From: Marinobacterium lutimaris | Lineage (GTDB): Bacteria > Pseudomonadota > Gammaproteobacteria > Pseudomonadales > Balneatricaceae | Assembly: GCF_900108065.1 (NCBI RefSeq) | Contig: NZ_FNVQ01000001.1 | Coordinates: forward strand, 1,860,001 to 1,924,000 | DNA length: 64,000 nt | Direction of reading: 5' to 3' | In this document: positions 18,564-48,875 of the stretch, piece after piece | Numbering within the stretch: the stretch's first letter is position 1 | Layout of the letters: the number at the start of each line of letters is the position of its first letter | Made by a program: the position numbers and the translations under genes | The notes under the pieces: generated by a model | Seen by the model: only the letters and a program-made list of their open reading frames with translations | What the model was told of the DNA's origin: nothing | The model's database searches: none

Positions 18564-19145
18564 ATGACAGACTTCCTGCTCATACTGATCAGCACCGTAC
18601 TGGTCAATAACTTCGTCCTCGTACAGTTTCTCGGACTCTGCCCGTTTATGGGCGTGTCCAACAAGCTGGAAACGGCGATGGGCATGTCGTTGGCCACCAC
18701 CTTCGTTCTGACCCTGTCATCGGTCTGCAGCTACCTGGTGTACACCTACCTGCTCAAGCCGTTTGACCTCACGTTCCTGCAGACGATCGCCTTTATCCTG
18801 GTGATAGCCGTGGTGGTTCAGTTCACCGAAATGGTGGTGCACAAGACCAGCCCGCTGCTGTACAAACTGCTGGGGATTTTCCTGCCGCTGATCACCACCA
18901 ACTGTGCGGTGCTCGGTGTCGCCCTGCTTAACATCAAGAAGCAGAACGACTTTTTCGAGTCGATCGCCTACGGATTTGGCGCCGCAGTGGGCTTCTCCCT
19001 GGCTCTGGTGCTGTTCTCTGCTATCCGTGAGCGTGTTGCTGTCGCTGATGTACCCGTGCCCTTCCGTGGCGCGGCGATCGGCATGGTTACCGCGGGTCTG
19101 ATGTCACTGGCCTTTATGGGATTCACCGGCCTGGTGCGGTTCTAA
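18564..19145 (+). CDS. rsxA: Rsx/Rnf complex subunit A
   Basis: This 193-residue inner-membrane subunit of the Rsx/Rnf ion-motive electron transport complex has six hydrophobic segments. [20 protein letters not shown] near the N-terminus is the family signature, and [12 protein letters not shown] carries the conserved Cys. RsxA and RsxE are homologous, inverted membrane halves that hold an iron-sulfur centre between them. It is first in a six-gene cluster (A-B-C-D-G-E). E. coli Rsx keeps SoxR reduced; in other bacteria Rnf moves electrons between NADH and ferredoxin. Confidence 0.95.
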
Positions 19146-19154
19146 GGAGTTATC

Positions 19155-19751
19155 ATGGGTACCGTACTGACAGCAATTATTGTCCTGTTACTGCTTGCCG
19201 CCGCCTTCGGTGTGCTGCTGGGCTATGCCTCCGTGCGCTTCAAGGTGGAAGGCAACCCTATCGTCGACCAGATCGACGCTATCCTGCCGCAGACTCAGTG
19301 CGGCCAGTGCGGCTATCCCGGCTGCCGCCCCTACGCCGAAGCGATCTCCAACGGCGATGCGATCAACAAGTGCCCTCCCGGTGGTCAGAGCACCATCGAG
19401 GCGCTGGCCGATCTGCTCGATGTTGAAGCGGTGCCGCTGGACTCAGAACACGGCGAGGAAAAACCCAAGTCTGTCGCCTTTATCCGCGAAGACGAGTGCA
19501 TCGGCTGCACCAAATGCATCCAGGCCTGCCCTGTAGATGCCATCCTTGGCGCCGCCAAGCAGATGCACACCGTTATTACTACTGAATGCACCGGCTGCGA
19601 CCTCTGTGTCGAGCCCTGCCCGGTTGACTGTATCGACATGATCCCGATTGAAACCACACCGAACACCTGGAAGTGGCCGGAACCGCCGGCTCCCATGGAC
19701 CTGATCGCCACCGACCGCGGCCGCGGCCTGGCCACCTCGGAGGTCCACTGA
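19155..19751 (+). CDS. rsxB: Rsx/Rnf complex subunit B (Fe-S ferredoxin)
   Basis: This 198-residue protein has an N-terminal membrane anchor (residues 5-25), then a CxxCxxxxC-type 4Fe-4S module (CGQCGYPGC, with a later Cys in KCPPGG) and two ferredoxin-type clusters, [12 protein letters not shown] and [12 protein letters not shown]. It passes electrons between the soluble ferredoxin side and the membrane subunits. It begins 9 bases after rsxA and its stop codon overlaps the rsxC start (TGATG). Length is close to E. coli RsxB (192). Confidence 0.95.
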
Positions 19752-22108
19752 TGTCACAGGTGTTCTCTTTTCACGGCGGTATCCATCCGCCGGAAAACAA
19801 GAAGCAGTCGACCCGCGCGCCGATCGGCAAGGCGCCGCTGCCGAAACAGCTGGTGCTGCCGATGCAGCAGCATATCGGCGGCCCCGCCGATCCACTGGTC
19901 AAGGTGGGCGACAGCGTACTCAAGGGCCAGTTGATAGCAGAGCCTATCGGCCGTATCAGCGCCGCCGTGCACGCCCCGACATCCGGCAAGGTAGTGGATA
20001 TCGCCCACTACCCTATTCCTCACGCCTCTGGTCTGAGTGGTGAGTGTGTCGTTATCGAGACCGATGGCGAAGATCGCTGGATCGAACATGAAGGGATCGC
20101 CGACTACAAGGCGATTGAGCGTGCGCAACTGACCGAGCATATCCGCGCCAGCGGTATCTCCGGCATGGGCGGCGCCGGCTTCCCTACCGATGTGAAGCTG
20201 CACCTGGGTGATAACCATATCGTCAATACGCTGATCATCAACGCCGCCGAATGCGAGCCGTACATCACCGCCGACGATATGCTGATGCGTGAGCGTCCGC
20301 ACGAGATCATCGGCGGGATCGAGATCATTGCCCACCTGCTGCGCCCGAGCCATATCCTGATCGGCATCGAGGACAACAAGACCAACGCCATCCACGCACT
20401 GGAAGCGGCGGTCAAGCACTGCGACCTCAATATCGACATCATCGTGGTACCCACCAAGTACCCGTCCGGCGGCGAGCGCCAGCTGATCAAGCTACTCACC
20501 GACATCGAGGTTCCGGCGGGTAAAATCCCAGCGGATATCGGTATCGTCTGCCAGAATGTGGGCACCACCTCTGCCGTTTACCGGGCGGTGCACAAGGGCG
20601 AACCGCTGATTTCCCGTATCGTCACAGTGACCGGCGACGCGGTGCGTCATCCAAAGAACCTTGAGGTTCTGCTCGGCACCCCGTTCAGCAGCCTGCTGGA
20701 AGCCTGCGACCTGCGCCCGGAAGCGCTGTCACGCCTGGTGATGGGCGGCCCGATGATGGGTGTTACCGTCGATAACGACCGCATTCCCGTCATCAAAACC
20801 ACCAACTGCCTGATCGCCGCCACCAAACAGGAGATGCCGCCAGCCCCTCCAGCCCAGGCCTGCATCCGCTGTGGTATGTGCGAACAGGCCTGCCCGGCAG
20901 ACCTGCTGCCGCAGCAGCTGTACTGGTTCTCCAAGGGACGCGAGTTCGACAAGGCCAAACACCACAACCTGTTTGACTGCATCGAGTGCGGCGCCTGCGC
21001 CTATGTCTGCCCCAGCAACATCCCGCTGGTGCAGTACTACCGCTTCGCCAAGTCGGAGATCCGCACCGAAGAACGCGAGCAGCAGAAGGCCGACCACGCC
21101 CGTGAACGCTTCGAAGCGCGCCAGGCCCGCCTGGACCGGGAGGCTGCCGAGAAGGAAGCCAAGCGCAAGGCGCGCGCCGCCGAAGCCGCCAAGGCTCAGG
21201 AAGCACGCAAGGCCGCCGCAGCCAAGCCCAAGGAAGAAGCTGCCGCCACCGCTACCGCCGCGCCCGACATCAAACAGCTGAAGACGGCCGCAGCCGTCGC
21301 ACGCACCAAGCTGAAAAAAGCGCAGAAAGCCTTTGATGAAGCCGCCGCCGGCAACAGCGAAGGCCTGGCCGAGCTGGAGCAGGCACTGAACGAGGCGCGC
21401 CTCAAAGCCGAGGAAGCGGAAAAAGCGCTTTCCGCAGGCTCCCCGGCACCCGCCGAGGGCGGCGACGCCGAGCTCAAGCAGCTGAAAGTCGCGGCCGCCG
21501 TTGCTCGCACCAAGCTGAAGAAAGCCCAGGACGCGCTGAAAAACGCTGAAGACAAGGGTCTGGAAGGGATCGATAAACTGCGCGCCACGGTAGAAGCCCT
21601 GGAACAAAAAGCCGACGAGGCGCAAAAGGCCTTCGACGCCGCGCAGCCTGCCGATGCGGCCGCGAAGCAGGAATCCGCGCCGAAAGAAACGCCCGCCAAG
21701 GCCGAACCTGCCGCTGAGCCTGCCCTGGATGCCAAGGCGCTGAAACAGCAGGTATCGATCATGCGCACCAAGCTGAAAAAAGCGGAAACAGCGCTGGAAG
21801 CCGCCGAAAGCGACGAGGAGCGCTCCTCACTGCAGGCCGATGTCGACGATCTGAAAAAGCGCTTTGACGAAGCCACCGAAGCGTTCAACAAGGTTGAAAA
21901 GGCCAAGATGGACGCCGCAGCCCAGGCCGGCATAGACCTGAAGCAGTTGCGCATCGACGCCGCCATGGCCAAAGCTGCGATCACCAAGGGTGAACGCGCC
22001 TTGAAAAAGGCCGAAGCCGACGACGAGCGCGCCCAGATCGAGCAGGAGCTGGTCGCCGCCCAGGCGAAATCGGACGAACTGCACAAAACGCTGAGCCAGT
22101 ATGACTAA
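19751..22108 (+). CDS. rsxC: Rsx/Rnf complex subunit C with repeated Ala/Lys coiled-coil tail
   Basis: This 785-residue peripheral subunit of the Rsx/Rnf complex binds NADH/FMN and two 4Fe-4S clusters. The N-terminal barrel (GGIHPPENK) is followed by the NADH/FMN region, then CIRCGMCEQACP and CIECGACAYVCP near residues 374 and 413. From about residue 440 the sequence is Ala/Lys/Glu-rich and predicted coiled coil. It contains four copies of a unit starting with LK-x-AAAVARTKLKKA or a variant, about 60-75 residues apart (near 509, 575, 664 and 735). Long repetitive tails are known in enterobacterial RsxC and vary between species. Confidence 0.93.
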   Translation: MSQVFSFHGGIHPPENKKQSTRAPIGKAPLPKQLVLPMQQHIGGPADPLVKVGDSVLKGQLIAEPIGRISAAVHAPTSGKVVDIAHYPIPHASGLSGECVVIETDGEDRWIEHEGIADYKAIERAQLTEHIRASGISGMGGAGFPTDVKLHLGDNHIVNTLIINAAECEPYITADDMLMRERPHEIIGGIEIIAHLLRPSHILIGIEDNKTNAIHALEAAVKHCDLNIDIIVVPTKYPSGGERQLIKLLTDIEVPAGKIPADIGIVCQNVGTTSAVYRAVHKGEPLISRIVTVTGDAVRHPKNLEVLLGTPFSSLLEACDLRPEALSRLVMGGPMMGVTVDNDRIPVIKTTNCLIAATKQEMPPAPPAQACIRCGMCEQACPADLLPQQLYWFSKGREFDKAKHHNLFDCIECGACAYVCPSNIPLVQYYRFAKSEIRTEEREQQKADHARERFEARQARLDREAAEKEAKRKARAAEAAKAQEARKAAAAKPKEEAAATATAAPDIKQLKTAAAVARTKLKKAQKAFDEAAAGNSEGLAELEQALNEARLKAEEAEKALSAGSPAPAEGGDAELKQLKVAAAVARTKLKKAQDALKNAEDKGLEGIDKLRATVEALEQKADEAQKAFDAAQPADAAAKQESAPKETPAKAEPAAEPALDAKALKQQVSIMRTKLKKAETALEAAESDEERSSLQADVDDLKKRFDEATEAFNKVEKAKMDAAAQAGIDLKQLRIDAAMAKAAITKGERALKKAEADDERAQIEQELVAAQAKSDELHKTLSQYD

Positions 22109-22136
22109 CCTTTTTCTGCCACAGGAATTTTGACCG

Positions 22137-23195
22137 ATGGCACTGATACACCTGAGTTCGCCTCACGTATCCAAAGCCAACAGCACCGCCAACGTTATGC
22201 GTCTGGTGCTGCTGGCCACCCTGCCCGGCATCCTTGCGATGACGGTATTTTTCGGCTGGGGAACGCTGATCCAGATCGTGCTTGCCTCGGTACTGGCGCT
22301 GGCGTTTGAAGCCGCCGTTCTGAAACTGCGTAAACGCCCGGTGGGATTTTTCCTTTCGGATGGCAGCGCACTGGTCACCGCGGTACTGCTTGCAGTGGCG
22401 ATTCCGCCCTTCTCCGCCTGGTGGGTCACCGCGACCGGTATTTTCTTTGCCATTGTTATCTCCAAGCAGCTCTATGGCGGCCTGGGCAACAACCCGTTCA
22501 ACCCGGCTATGGTGGCCTATGCATTGCTGCTGGTCTCCTTCCCCGTTGAGATGACCCGTTGGACCGCACCGATCACACAGAACGGCGAAGGCTGGCATGT
22601 GGCCGGTTTCCTCGACACCCTGCAGGTGATCTTCGGCAGCGTGGAGCAGCAGTGGTATGACTCGTTCACCGGCGCCACTCCACTGGATGTGCTCAAACAC
22701 CGTGCCGGGCTCACCACCGAAGAGCTCTGGCGTCAGTCTGATGTACTGATGAACGGCGTTGCCGCCTGGTACGCGATCAGCGCCGCCTGGTTTATGGGCG
22801 GTATCTTCCTGCTGTCACGCAAGATCTTCACCTGGCACGCACCGCTGTCGATGCTGGTGGCCCTGTTCCTGATGGCAAGCATGTTCTACGGCTTTGATCC
22901 GGACAACTACGTCAGCCCGATCGTTCACCTGGGCGTGGGCGCCACCATGCTGGGTGCGTTCTTTATCGTCACCGACCCGGTGTCATCGGCGACCAGTAAC
23001 CGCGGCAAGATCATCTATGGCGCCCTGATTGGCGTGATGATCTACATCATCCGCACCTGGGGTAACTATCCGGACGCCGTGGCGTTCTCGGTGCTGCTGA
23101 TGAACCTCTGCGCACCCTTTATCGACCAGTACACCCAGCCGCGCACCTACGGCCACAAGAAAGCGAACCGCGGCACGAAAGGAAAGAACCAATGA
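22137..23195 (+). CDS. rsxD: Rsx/Rnf complex subunit D
   Basis: This 352-residue inner-membrane subunit is related to NqrB and has about ten hydrophobic segments. FTGATPLDVL near residue 180 contains the Thr that receives a phosphoester-bound FMN in this family. GGLGNNPFNPAMV and the C-terminal FIVTDPVSSATSNRGKI are also conserved. Its stop overlaps the rsxG start (ATGA at 23192-23195), so translation of the two is coupled. Confidence 0.95.
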   Translation: MALIHLSSPHVSKANSTANVMRLVLLATLPGILAMTVFFGWGTLIQIVLASVLALAFEAAVLKLRKRPVGFFLSDGSALVTAVLLAVAIPPFSAWWVTATGIFFAIVISKQLYGGLGNNPFNPAMVAYALLLVSFPVEMTRWTAPITQNGEGWHVAGFLDTLQVIFGSVEQQWYDSFTGATPLDVLKHRAGLTTEELWRQSDVLMNGVAAWYAISAAWFMGGIFLLSRKIFTWHAPLSMLVALFLMASMFYGFDPDNYVSPIVHLGVGATMLGAFFIVTDPVSSATSNRGKIIYGALIGVMIYIIRTWGNYPDAVAFSVLLMNLCAPFIDQYTQPRTYGHKKANRGTKGKNQ

Positions 23196-23848
23196 ATACA
23201 GAGATGTTTGCCGCCCTACGTCGCAGCACTCTGGGTATCGCCGTCTTCGCAGTAGTCACCGCCGGCGTCATAGCCGTCACCCAGGTGGCCACAAGCGAAC
23301 GCATTGCCGACAACATCGCTCAGGCAGAAGCCCGTGCGCTGTATGAGATTGTGCCCCGTTCGGTGGACGATCAGCTGCATGAACATCGCATCCCGTTCGA
23401 CGCCCCGGAACTGGATCTGGCACAACCACGCGAAGCCTGGCAGGCGATCGTGGATGGCGAGGTAAAAACCGTGATCATGCCGGTGGTCGCACCCGACGGC
23501 TACAGCGGTGATATCCATCTGCTGGTGGGCATCAACAGCGACGCAACGGTCGCAGGCGTGCGGGTACTGTCGCACAAGGAAACACCGGGGCTTGGCGACA
23601 AGATCGAACCCTCCAAGTCAAACTGGCTGGAAGGTTTTGTCGGCAAGACCCAGAGCGGCCCCGGCGATGACAGCTGGGCAGTGCAAAAAGATGGCGGTCA
23701 GTTTGACCAGTTTACCGGCGCCACCATCACGCCACGCGCCGTGGTTAACGCCACGGGGCGCGCCATACAGTATTTCCGTGCCCACAAGGCACGCCTGCTC
23801 ACACCGGCCACCGAATCCGCCGGACAAGAAGGGAGCAACGCATCATGA
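23192..23848 (+). CDS. rsxG: Rsx/Rnf complex subunit G
   Basis: This 218-residue subunit has one N-terminal membrane span (about 13-32) and a periplasmic FMN-binding domain. The covalent FMN site is [12 protein letters not shown] near residue 171, with [12 protein letters not shown] upstream. It shuttles electrons with RsxD on the outer face of the membrane. It overlaps rsxD and rsxE by four bases at each end. Confidence 0.95.
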
Positions 23849-24552
23849 GCGTGGATTACCGCAAGATCAGCCTGAATGGCCTCTGGCACAACAACCCGGC
23901 ACTGGTACAGCTGCTCGGCCTCTGCCCGCTGCTGGCCGTAACCAGTTCGGTGGTTAACGCCATCGGCCTGGGCGTAGCCAGCACCCTGGTCCTGACCAGC
24001 TCCAACCTTACCGTGTCACTGTTCCGACGCCTGGTACCGGAAACGGTTCGTCTGCCGATTTTCGTCATGATCATCGCCTCATTCGTAACCGCCATCGAAC
24101 TGCTGATGCAGGCGTTTACCTATGAGCTCTACCTGATCCTGGGCATCTTCATTCCGCTGATCGTGACCAACTGCGTGATCATGGGTCGCGCCGACGCTTT
24201 CGCCGCCAAGAACCCCGTCTCCGCCTCGGTGGTGGACGGCTTCATGATGAGCACCGGTTTCACCTGTGTTCTGGTATTGCTTGGCGCGATACGTGAAATT
24301 CTCGGTACCGGCGCCATCTTCGCCAACATGCATCTACTGTTTGGTGAAAGCGCACGCCACTGGACTATCACCCTGGCCGATAACTACGACGGCTTTCTGT
24401 TCGCCATCCTGCCGCCGGGTGCCTTCGTTGGCCTTGGACTGCTGATTGCACTCAAGAACGTCATCGACGCCCGTGCCGAACGTAAGCGTAAACAGATTCC
24501 GCTGACCGAAGCCAAGGAATCGGGCAGCAAACGCGTTCGAGTTACAGGCTAA
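23845..24552 (+). CDS. rsxE: Rsx/Rnf complex subunit E
   Basis: This 235-residue inner-membrane subunit is homologous to RsxA and Nqr[24 protein letters not shown] is the family start, and [16 protein letters not shown] carries the conserved Cys. It closes the rsxABCDGE cluster. In E. coli nth follows directly; here two signalling genes are placed between. A dyad, TGACAGT/ACTGTCA, lies at 24616-24635 in the gap after it. Confidence 0.95.
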
Positions 24553-47997: not shown

Positions 47998-48171
47998 CGG
48001 GCAGGCGTATCCTTACAGGCTGAGCGACAGAGGCGGGGAACAGGCGGGCTAGCAAAATATGACCCGGCATAGCGAAGCGCCGGTCAGAATTGACCAGCGC
48101 CTGGATCGGTTCCTAAACGCCGTCCGAGCGGCGTCCCAAGCTCTGTATTATGCGCCTATACCCAGGGGATT

Positions 48172-48651
48172 TCAGCCATCCCAACCCTCATCCTCCATCT
48201 GGTCGAAGCGGTCATCACCGCCGCCCGCCTTGCGCTTGAGGATATTTGCCAGCCAGAATTCAGGGGATCCACTGGCCAGCTCCGTCTGCAGCGCCTCCAC
48301 CAGCTCCTCCACATCCGGGCCGCCCTTCACCTTGATCGGGTTGATACCCAGGGTCACCAGTTGGCGGGTGGCTGAACCGCCAATGGAGCCGCAGTAGACC
48401 ACATCGGCACCCACCAGCCAGGCCATCTTCGGTTTGAGCTTGTCTTCGTTACCATCCTTCTTCTCATAGCCAAAGTCATGGCTGGCGATCAGCTCGGCAC
48501 TCTCTGCCGTGATCGCCCAGGCATAAAACGCCTGCGCCGAACCAAAGTGCTGATCGACCATCTCACCATCCTGAGAGGCAAAGGCCACGATCAGTGCCTG
48601 GGGATCGCTGACCGCATCGGCCACGCACTGGAAGCTGATATCTGTGCTCAT
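48172..48651 (-). CDS. nifX: NifX, nitrogenase cofactor precursor-binding protein (isolated gene)
   Basis: This 159-residue protein of the NifX/NafY/NifB-C family (PF02579) binds NifB-co and VK cluster during FeMo-co synthesis. VAFASQDGEMVDQHFGSA (about 22-39; His35) is the signature. GNEDKLKPKMAWLVGADVVYC, then GSATRQLVTLGINPIKVK, and the acidic tail DDRFDQMEDEGWDG match true NifX, not just any member of the family. No other nif gene is in the window. The promoter is of sigma-54/NifA type. A duty outside nitrogen fixation is the alternative. Confidence 0.85.
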   Translation of the reverse strand: MSTDISFQCVADAVSDPQALIVAFASQDGEMVDQHFGSAQAFYAWAITAESAELIASHDFGYEKKDGNEDKLKPKMAWLVGADVVYCGSIGGSATRQLVTLGINPIKVKGGPDVEELVEALQTELASGSPEFWLANILKRKAGGGDDRFDQMEDEGWDG

Positions 48652-48732
48652 ACCTATCTCCTAGCAGAGGGCTTCCGACGCTGGCCGGAGGCGGGTGTAC
48701 GGGCTGGTTTGGCAACCCGTTTGCTAAACCAT

Positions 48733-48749
48733 TGCAAACCGCACACCAG
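48733..48749 (-). promoter_or_regulatory. nifX: Sigma-54 -24/-12 promoter of nifX
   Basis: Read on the minus strand, CTGGTGTGCGGTTTGCA has the invariant GG (-24) and GC (-12) 10 bases apart, with the TTTGC block at -12. The -24 element departs from TGGCAC after TGG. The start site would be about 70 bases before the nifX ATG. Confidence 0.72.
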
Positions 48750-48822
48750 CAGACCGCAATGAGATAGCACCCGTTAATTCAGAGACTTAGTACGCTTTTG
48801 ATAGAGTGGTAGAGAATGCGGA

Positions 48823-48862
48823 CCGGCGCCTGGTTGTCGTAAAAGCGACAACAATGCGCCGG
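48823..48862. repeat. Long inverted repeat between fadD and nifX
   Basis: CCGGCGC (48823-48829) pairs with GCGCCGG (48856-48862), and inside GTTGTCG (48833-48839) pairs with CGACAAC (48846-48852) around TAAAAG. It lies directly after the fadD stop and holds the NifA-type site. It may end the fadD message as well. Confidence 0.65.
48835..48850 (-). promoter_or_regulatory. NifA upstream activator sequence (TGT-N10-ACA)
   Basis: On the nifX strand the site reads TGTCGCTTTTACGACA, which fits the full NifA consensus TGT-N4-T-N5-ACA. Its centre is about 100 bases upstream of the -24/-12 element and 120 from the expected start, within the usual range (80-150). Confidence 0.74.
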
Positions 48863-48875
48863 CCCACAGCAGGAA

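Follow-up and report, generated by a model that had tools for sequence, protein, structure and literature searches.

Within a 64-kb stretch of the 5.57-Mb Marinobacterium lutimaris genome (G000:C18:1860001-1924000, here called the window), a gene for a NifX-like protein lies apart from other nif genes and behind putative NifA and sigma-54 sites. The locus raises the question of whether this gene is the nifX of the organism, moved out of its cluster or kept as a separately controlled member of the nif regulon, as the initial annotation had supposed, or a protein of a different lineage, and what such a protein would do.

The gene, referred to as W, occupies positions 48172 to 48651 of the minus strand, and AGGAG precedes its ATG as read directly in the sequence. 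It encodes 159 amino acids, with His35 located in the motif VDQHFG and with the C-terminal sequence RFDQMEDEGWDG. A profile scan confirmed the assignment to the NifX-like proteins, W scoring 60.9 bits against PF02579 (cut-off, 26.3 bits). Against the NCBIfam nifX model (TIGR02663; cut-off, 112 bits) W reached 91 bits; since the nifX adjoining nifN in the same genome likewise falls short (106.8 bits), this cut-off is useless as a discriminator here. The best named protein match of W, with 96% identity, came from Marinobacterium mangrovicola DSM 27697, which we take to be strain Gal22. A profile of the W family matched Azotobacter NifX (PDB 9ian) over its full length with an E value of 7e-46, and the best PDB match of the W structure model (mean pLDDT, 75.4) was chain F of the same entry (E, 8.2e-12; TM, 0.73 by query; rmsd, 8.8). 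Residues H35, R148, F149, and W157 were invariant in all 16 sequences aligned, and all W rows of the family alignment featured HFG and an acidic, Trp-bearing tail. As the HFG histidine was present in every PF02579-family row compared, including those of the NifY/NafY type, it does not set NifX apart from related proteins in this comparison. The tail is the discriminating feature, as the NifX-type C terminus is present in the W family and absent from NifY/NafY-type rows. Judged by sequence conservation alone, W possesses the predicted NifE-docking C-terminal helix expected of a NifX. On the 3′ side of W, GC-rich stem-loops were found by pattern match and folding at 48064 to 48136 of the minus strand, one stem-loop and then GTCATATTTT. 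The folding z value of this region was -2.01, with 9 of 200 shuffles folding equally well; it is possibly a terminator, which would split W from the downstream transporter gene.

The nif regulon expected elsewhere in the genome is indeed present, comprising nifHDK, nifEN, nifB, nifUS, and nifA (702 bits; cut-off, 528.85), and rpoN (513.6 bits; cut-off, 277.35) is located on another contig. A canonical nifX adjoins nifN approximately 29 kb from W, and its product is 41% identical to the W protein. No nif neighbors of W were recognized among the ORFs of the 64-kb window, judged by eye; the isolation originally claimed for the gene therefore holds on this scale, but not far beyond it, the nearest identified nif gene, nifS, being only about 23 kb away. 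W and the canonical gene are separated by approximately 26 to 39 kb in the seven Marinobacterium genomes having both on one contig and lie on separate contigs in the eighth (G006). The NifE protein of the genome retains R97, E99, K100, R101, H104, and C25, as read from an alignment. A single-domain PF02579 protein of 117 amino acids (G000:C18:724393-724674, plus strand) obtained its best score with the NifB model (C-terminal part). In addition, an rnf-type gene set was recognized by eye from the ORFs at 18564 to 24552 of the window (plus strand), and a second starts from G000:C18:2005314, behind UAS and -24/-12 sites and adjoining a presumed nifL; the genome seems to have one general and one nif-controlled Rnf.

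The 25 W-type rows grouped as one clade in a 65-row tree (support, 99/94; present in 100% of 200 bootstrap trees). This clade lay outside the canonical group, in which Azotobacter NifX is joined by 29 further NifX rows and which is more weakly supported (88/86), and apart from the NifY/NafY group. The tree is midpoint-rooted, and the program flagged long branches at its deep nodes; because of this root and the weaker NifX side any great age of W is a tentative matter. Nine of the 22 places from other genomes in the phylum sample entered the tree, together with a selection of short PF02579 matches, NifY/NafY-type ones included (three NifY-position rows, G000 1066k, and G019_Y, with G000 724k among those omitted); W_G213 and W_G233 were left out because their contigs equal those of L053 and L055 in length. 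The position of W outside the nif cluster, combined with its nif-type control, would suit a displaced canonical nifX. This reading is effectively ruled out by the copy beside nifN, by the occurrence of both W and a canonical-type nifX in all eight Marinobacterium genomes, i.e., this one and the seven others, and by the separate clade. The suggestion that nifX had been moved out must consequently be abandoned: W is a paralogue, and the "isolated nifX" is better read as "a second NifX".

Sampling of 390 genomes across the order recovered proteins of the W type (at least 53% identity) in 13, which are distributed over six families. With the two 390-genome draws for W and nifH taken as the same sample, all 13 belong to the 17 genomes with nifH over the cut-off, and W was found in none of the other 373; the four nifH genomes lacking W are G069, G158, G321, and G338. 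Canonical-type NifX (E of ≤1e-15) accompanied W in 12 of the 13 genomes, G040 being the exception. In the phylum sample of 398 genomes, the best match to W beyond the window genome reached 47% identity, and a pattern scan of named genomes yielded 15 loci, the named genera being Marinobacterium, Oceanobacter, and Pseudomaricurvus. The W clade looks confined to this part of the Gammaproteobacteria, as seen with a pattern scan that finds close relatives only. Spread by plasmids was considered and rejected: all 173 plasmid records matching W were below 60% identity, and among the plasmid matches listed, 11 of 12 were annotated as nifX and one as NifB/NifX family.

Over 136 nonindependent pairs from the 17 genomes with both types, mean identity was 69.3% for W versus 62.4% for canonical NifX, W being higher in 107; within Marinobacterium, the values were 80.6 versus 76.2 over 28 pairs, with W higher in 21. 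G228, a near copy of G306, and G040, lacking a canonical match, were excluded from this comparison. Judged by these identities, W evolves more slowly than canonical NifX. The two types are separated by 18 columns, chiefly in the loop at Azotobacter positions 88 to 92, which reads GSIGG (GSVGG in some) in W versus RACGA in canonical NifX, which speaks against W being a simple duplicate. With NifX of Azotobacter vinelandii (PDB 9ian/9iao), W shares PF02579, His35, the NifE-binding C-terminal tail, and the length (159 versus 158 amino acids), but the W family is only about 47% identical to it on average (46.7%, compared with 62.2% for canonical rows), has the other 88-92 loop, and has its own promoter, usually alongside a canonical-type NifX. 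The C-terminal GWDE tail that is usual in canonical NifX is missing from the copies encoded at L093:5309-5776 (minus strand) and L092:11686-12153 (plus strand), both from genomes with the second NifX gene immediately ahead of nifENX. This arrangement is seen in G228 and G306, which represent one genus: the W-type gene and a gene for an 84-residue protein described below directly precede nifENX, while the canonical protein lacks its usual tail, as if the roles of the two NifX types had shifted. In G106, a 113-residue PF02579 protein (L095:3467-3808, minus strand) directly follows the W-type gene, behind nifHDKTY.

Upstream of W, both promoter elements reported in the initial annotation were found again: a -24/-12 (sigma-54-type) element, CTGGTGTGCGGTTTGCA, at 48733 to 48749 and a NifA-type UAS, TGTCGCTTTTACGACA, an exact TGT-N10-ACA, at 48835 to 48850, both on the minus strand. 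Their starts are 101 bases apart. Arithmetic places the UAS center approximately 120 bases from the expected transcription start, in agreement with the distance given earlier, and leaves an expected 5′ leader of approximately 70 bases (48652 to 48722, minus strand), the start of which is derived from the -12 element. The pair scores 22.5 and is the only one of at least 20 in the window, where five pairs score at least 17; 60 shuffled windows contained on average 0.67 pairs at ≥20 and 0.03 at ≥22, the -24/-12 score weights being our own and built on the sigma-54 consensus. In a scan of 164 kb, similar scores were obtained ahead of genes taken as iscA-nif (23.0), rnf (21.5), nifH (21.0), nifE (21.0), nifB (20.5), and nifL (20.5); iscA-nif, nifL, and rnf were named by eye. 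One 21.0 site, at 1937530, falls within the nifX coding region, presumably by chance. TGT-N10-ACA was absent upstream of canonical nifX in the five regions checked among the eight Marinobacterium genomes, and GG-N10-GC elements upstream of canonical nifX reach 20.5, so that the -24/-12 score by itself proves little. A further GG-N10-GC element, TTGGCAACCCGTTTGCT (48709 to 48725, plus strand), lies in the leader on the opposite strand, directed away from W; by eye, it is absent from the M. mangrovicola sequence.

The two sites proved to be conserved in relatives. A strict pair, defined by a score of at least 17 and a distance of 60 to 180 bases between UAS and -24/-12, was present in 18 of 25 W loci, the window included (seven of eight in Marinobacterium, 11 of 17 elsewhere). 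The chance expectation from 400 shuffles was a mean of 0.19 loci with a maximum of 2, these being first-order resamplings and related loci not being independent; the start codons of nine W loci were picked by script. In the remaining seven loci, either the -24/-12 element is present and the exact UAS is missing (L047, L052, and L054), or TGT-N10-ACA is present with no -24/-12 element after it (L055 and G273), or TGT-N10-ACA again lacks a -24/-12 element and W stands behind other same-strand genes (G040 and G106). The gene directly upstream of W encodes an acyl-CoA ligase in the window genome and in M. mangrovicola; it is thiolase-like in five other Marinobacterium genomes and different elsewhere (the genes other than the ligase were named by eye), so that the conservation of the sites cannot be put down to a common gene in front of W. 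The window UAS is embedded in a longer inverted repeat (CCGGCGC...GCGCCGG) that lies just past the upstream gene. At 48871 to 48857, one weak terminator-like match of five pairs was obtained in the pattern scan. Both features might be seen if the palindrome served another regulator or the terminator of the upstream gene rather than NifA. We consider this very improbable, as site and spacing recur behind different upstream genes, the long stem is without a following T run, and the same core is found in a UAS-type site ahead of the nifH of the organism, TGTCGCATTTTCGACA. Judged by these sites, W probably belongs to the NifA/sigma-54 nif regulon as a unit of its own.

According to a 2026 structural study, NifB-co is coordinated by H35 of NifX, and the last 15 NifX residues (144 to 158) bind a charged patch of NifE formed by R97, E99, K100, R101, and H104 (PMC13128457). 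On balance, we favor the view that W is an old second NifX which would be expressed from its own NifA/sigma-54 promoter and deliver NifB-co to NifEN; in an equally possible version of this role, W would buffer NifB-co. Against this view stand the seven loci lacking the strict pair, the four nifH genomes lacking W, the missing canonical match in G040, and the divergence of W from canonical NifX in the 88-92 loop and in identity to the Azotobacter protein. In nitrogen-limited cells, NifA bound at the UAS would activate sigma-54 RNA polymerase at the -24/-12 element of W. The W protein would then bind NifB-co via His35, dock on the NifE patch with its C-terminal helix, and pass the cluster to NifEN in parallel to canonical NifX, with the result that the dose of the carrier would be decoupled from the nifENX operon.

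Other members of the family suggest other roles. VnfX, like W as we read it, is a second NifX-like NifB-co carrier beside NifX, but it serves VnfEN of the V-nitrogenase (PMC13128457), whereas in the W genome the alpha-type model TIGR01862 matches only nifD and nifE; W is therefore unlikely to serve another nitrogenase in the manner of VnfX, and this reading was rejected. Paenibacillus orf1, likewise considered as a NifX paralogue, found no support in the excerpts of PMC6429469. Rather unlikely, in our estimation, is a NafY-like role in which W would carry or buffer finished FeMo-co or a later intermediate between NifEN and NifDK. It would fit the SIGG loop, which resembles that of NafY (SIGGPA) where canonical NifX has RACGA, and the binding of FeMo-co by NifX in vitro (PMC11938142). 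NafY/NifY proteins also share PF02579 and, in the rows compared, HFG with W; they differ in their size of about 240 amino acids, with an extra N-terminal part, and in the missing NifX-type NifE-docking tail, which W retains. Moreover, W falls outside their group in the tree, and the window genome already has two proteins of this group, each of about 240 amino acids. Placeholder or antagonist functions have been proposed for family members such as NifY and NafX (PMC13128457), and W could accordingly occupy NifE or withhold clusters. We regard this as distinctly unlikely: Azotobacter NifY and NafX are described in the same paper as being without the cluster-binding histidine, which W has. The argument is weakened by the NifY-position protein of this genome, which has HFG as well.

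Returning to W as a second carrier of NifB-co, a candidate partner is found in the 84-residue protein mentioned above, which ends in IDE(Y/F)LWG(E/D)SD in 11 of 11 rows. In 9 of 25 loci, its gene stands downstream of the W-type gene in the same orientation, and in three it is found close by in the opposite orientation. In seven of the eight Marinobacterium genomes, a homologue is encoded on another contig, and none was found in G004, a genome that is 87% complete. All seven Marinobacterium genes are preceded by TGGCA-N7-TGCA, with TGG- or TGA-N10-ACA, one base off the exact UAS, 88 to 100 bases before the -24/-12 element, as counted by pattern match. The protein was present in 12 of 19 chosen genomes, including G338, which has nifH and no W, and is missing from the W genomes G004 and G106. 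Its structure model (pLDDT, 84.1, from only three sequences) gave no PDB match at an E value of ≤0.001, and there was no Pfam match for four members scanned and no NCBIfam match for the one scanned. The Marinobacterium homologue (L106:1489-1791, minus strand; G000:C13:9334-9573), with its own -24/-12 and near-UAS sites, is followed by an 80-residue ORF and then by a cytochrome oxidase subunit II-like ORF, as judged by eye. Tentatively, and with considerable doubt, W and the 84-residue protein may constitute a two-part cofactor-trafficking branch in the diazotrophs of this order, co-regulated by NifA even in Marinobacterium, where the genes are apart and each has a sigma-54-type control region, in which W would be the second carrier of NifB-co (or of a later cluster) and the 84-residue protein a small helper.

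In the literature searched, with most subscription papers outside its scope, we recognized no description of this W clade; the terms "nifX2" (in three papers) and "nifX-like gene" (PMC8287671) do occur. NifX binds a central intermediate of nitrogenase cofactor assembly, and deletion of nifX in A. vinelandii leaves diazotrophic growth unaffected, an outcome that the authors ascribe to further proteins of the NifX type (PMC13128457). A cyanobacterial nifX mutant retained 14% activity, and diazotrophic growth was lost when nifX and nafY were both mutated (PMC6428710). That the present organism is a nitrogen-fixing marine gammaproteobacterium, as originally proposed, agrees with its nif genes and with the nitrogenase activity of its near relative M. 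mangrovicola Gal22, for which a nifH deletion strain described as unable to fix nitrogen and a reporter exist (PMC4426756). In the genome presented here, both known NifX features are combined in each of two proteins, whose control appears to be separate. Whether NifX carriers back each other up could be tested directly in the closely related M. mangrovicola Gal22 with its nifH deletion, and the gene of the conserved 84-residue partner emerges as a new candidate for an accessory role in nitrogenase assembly.
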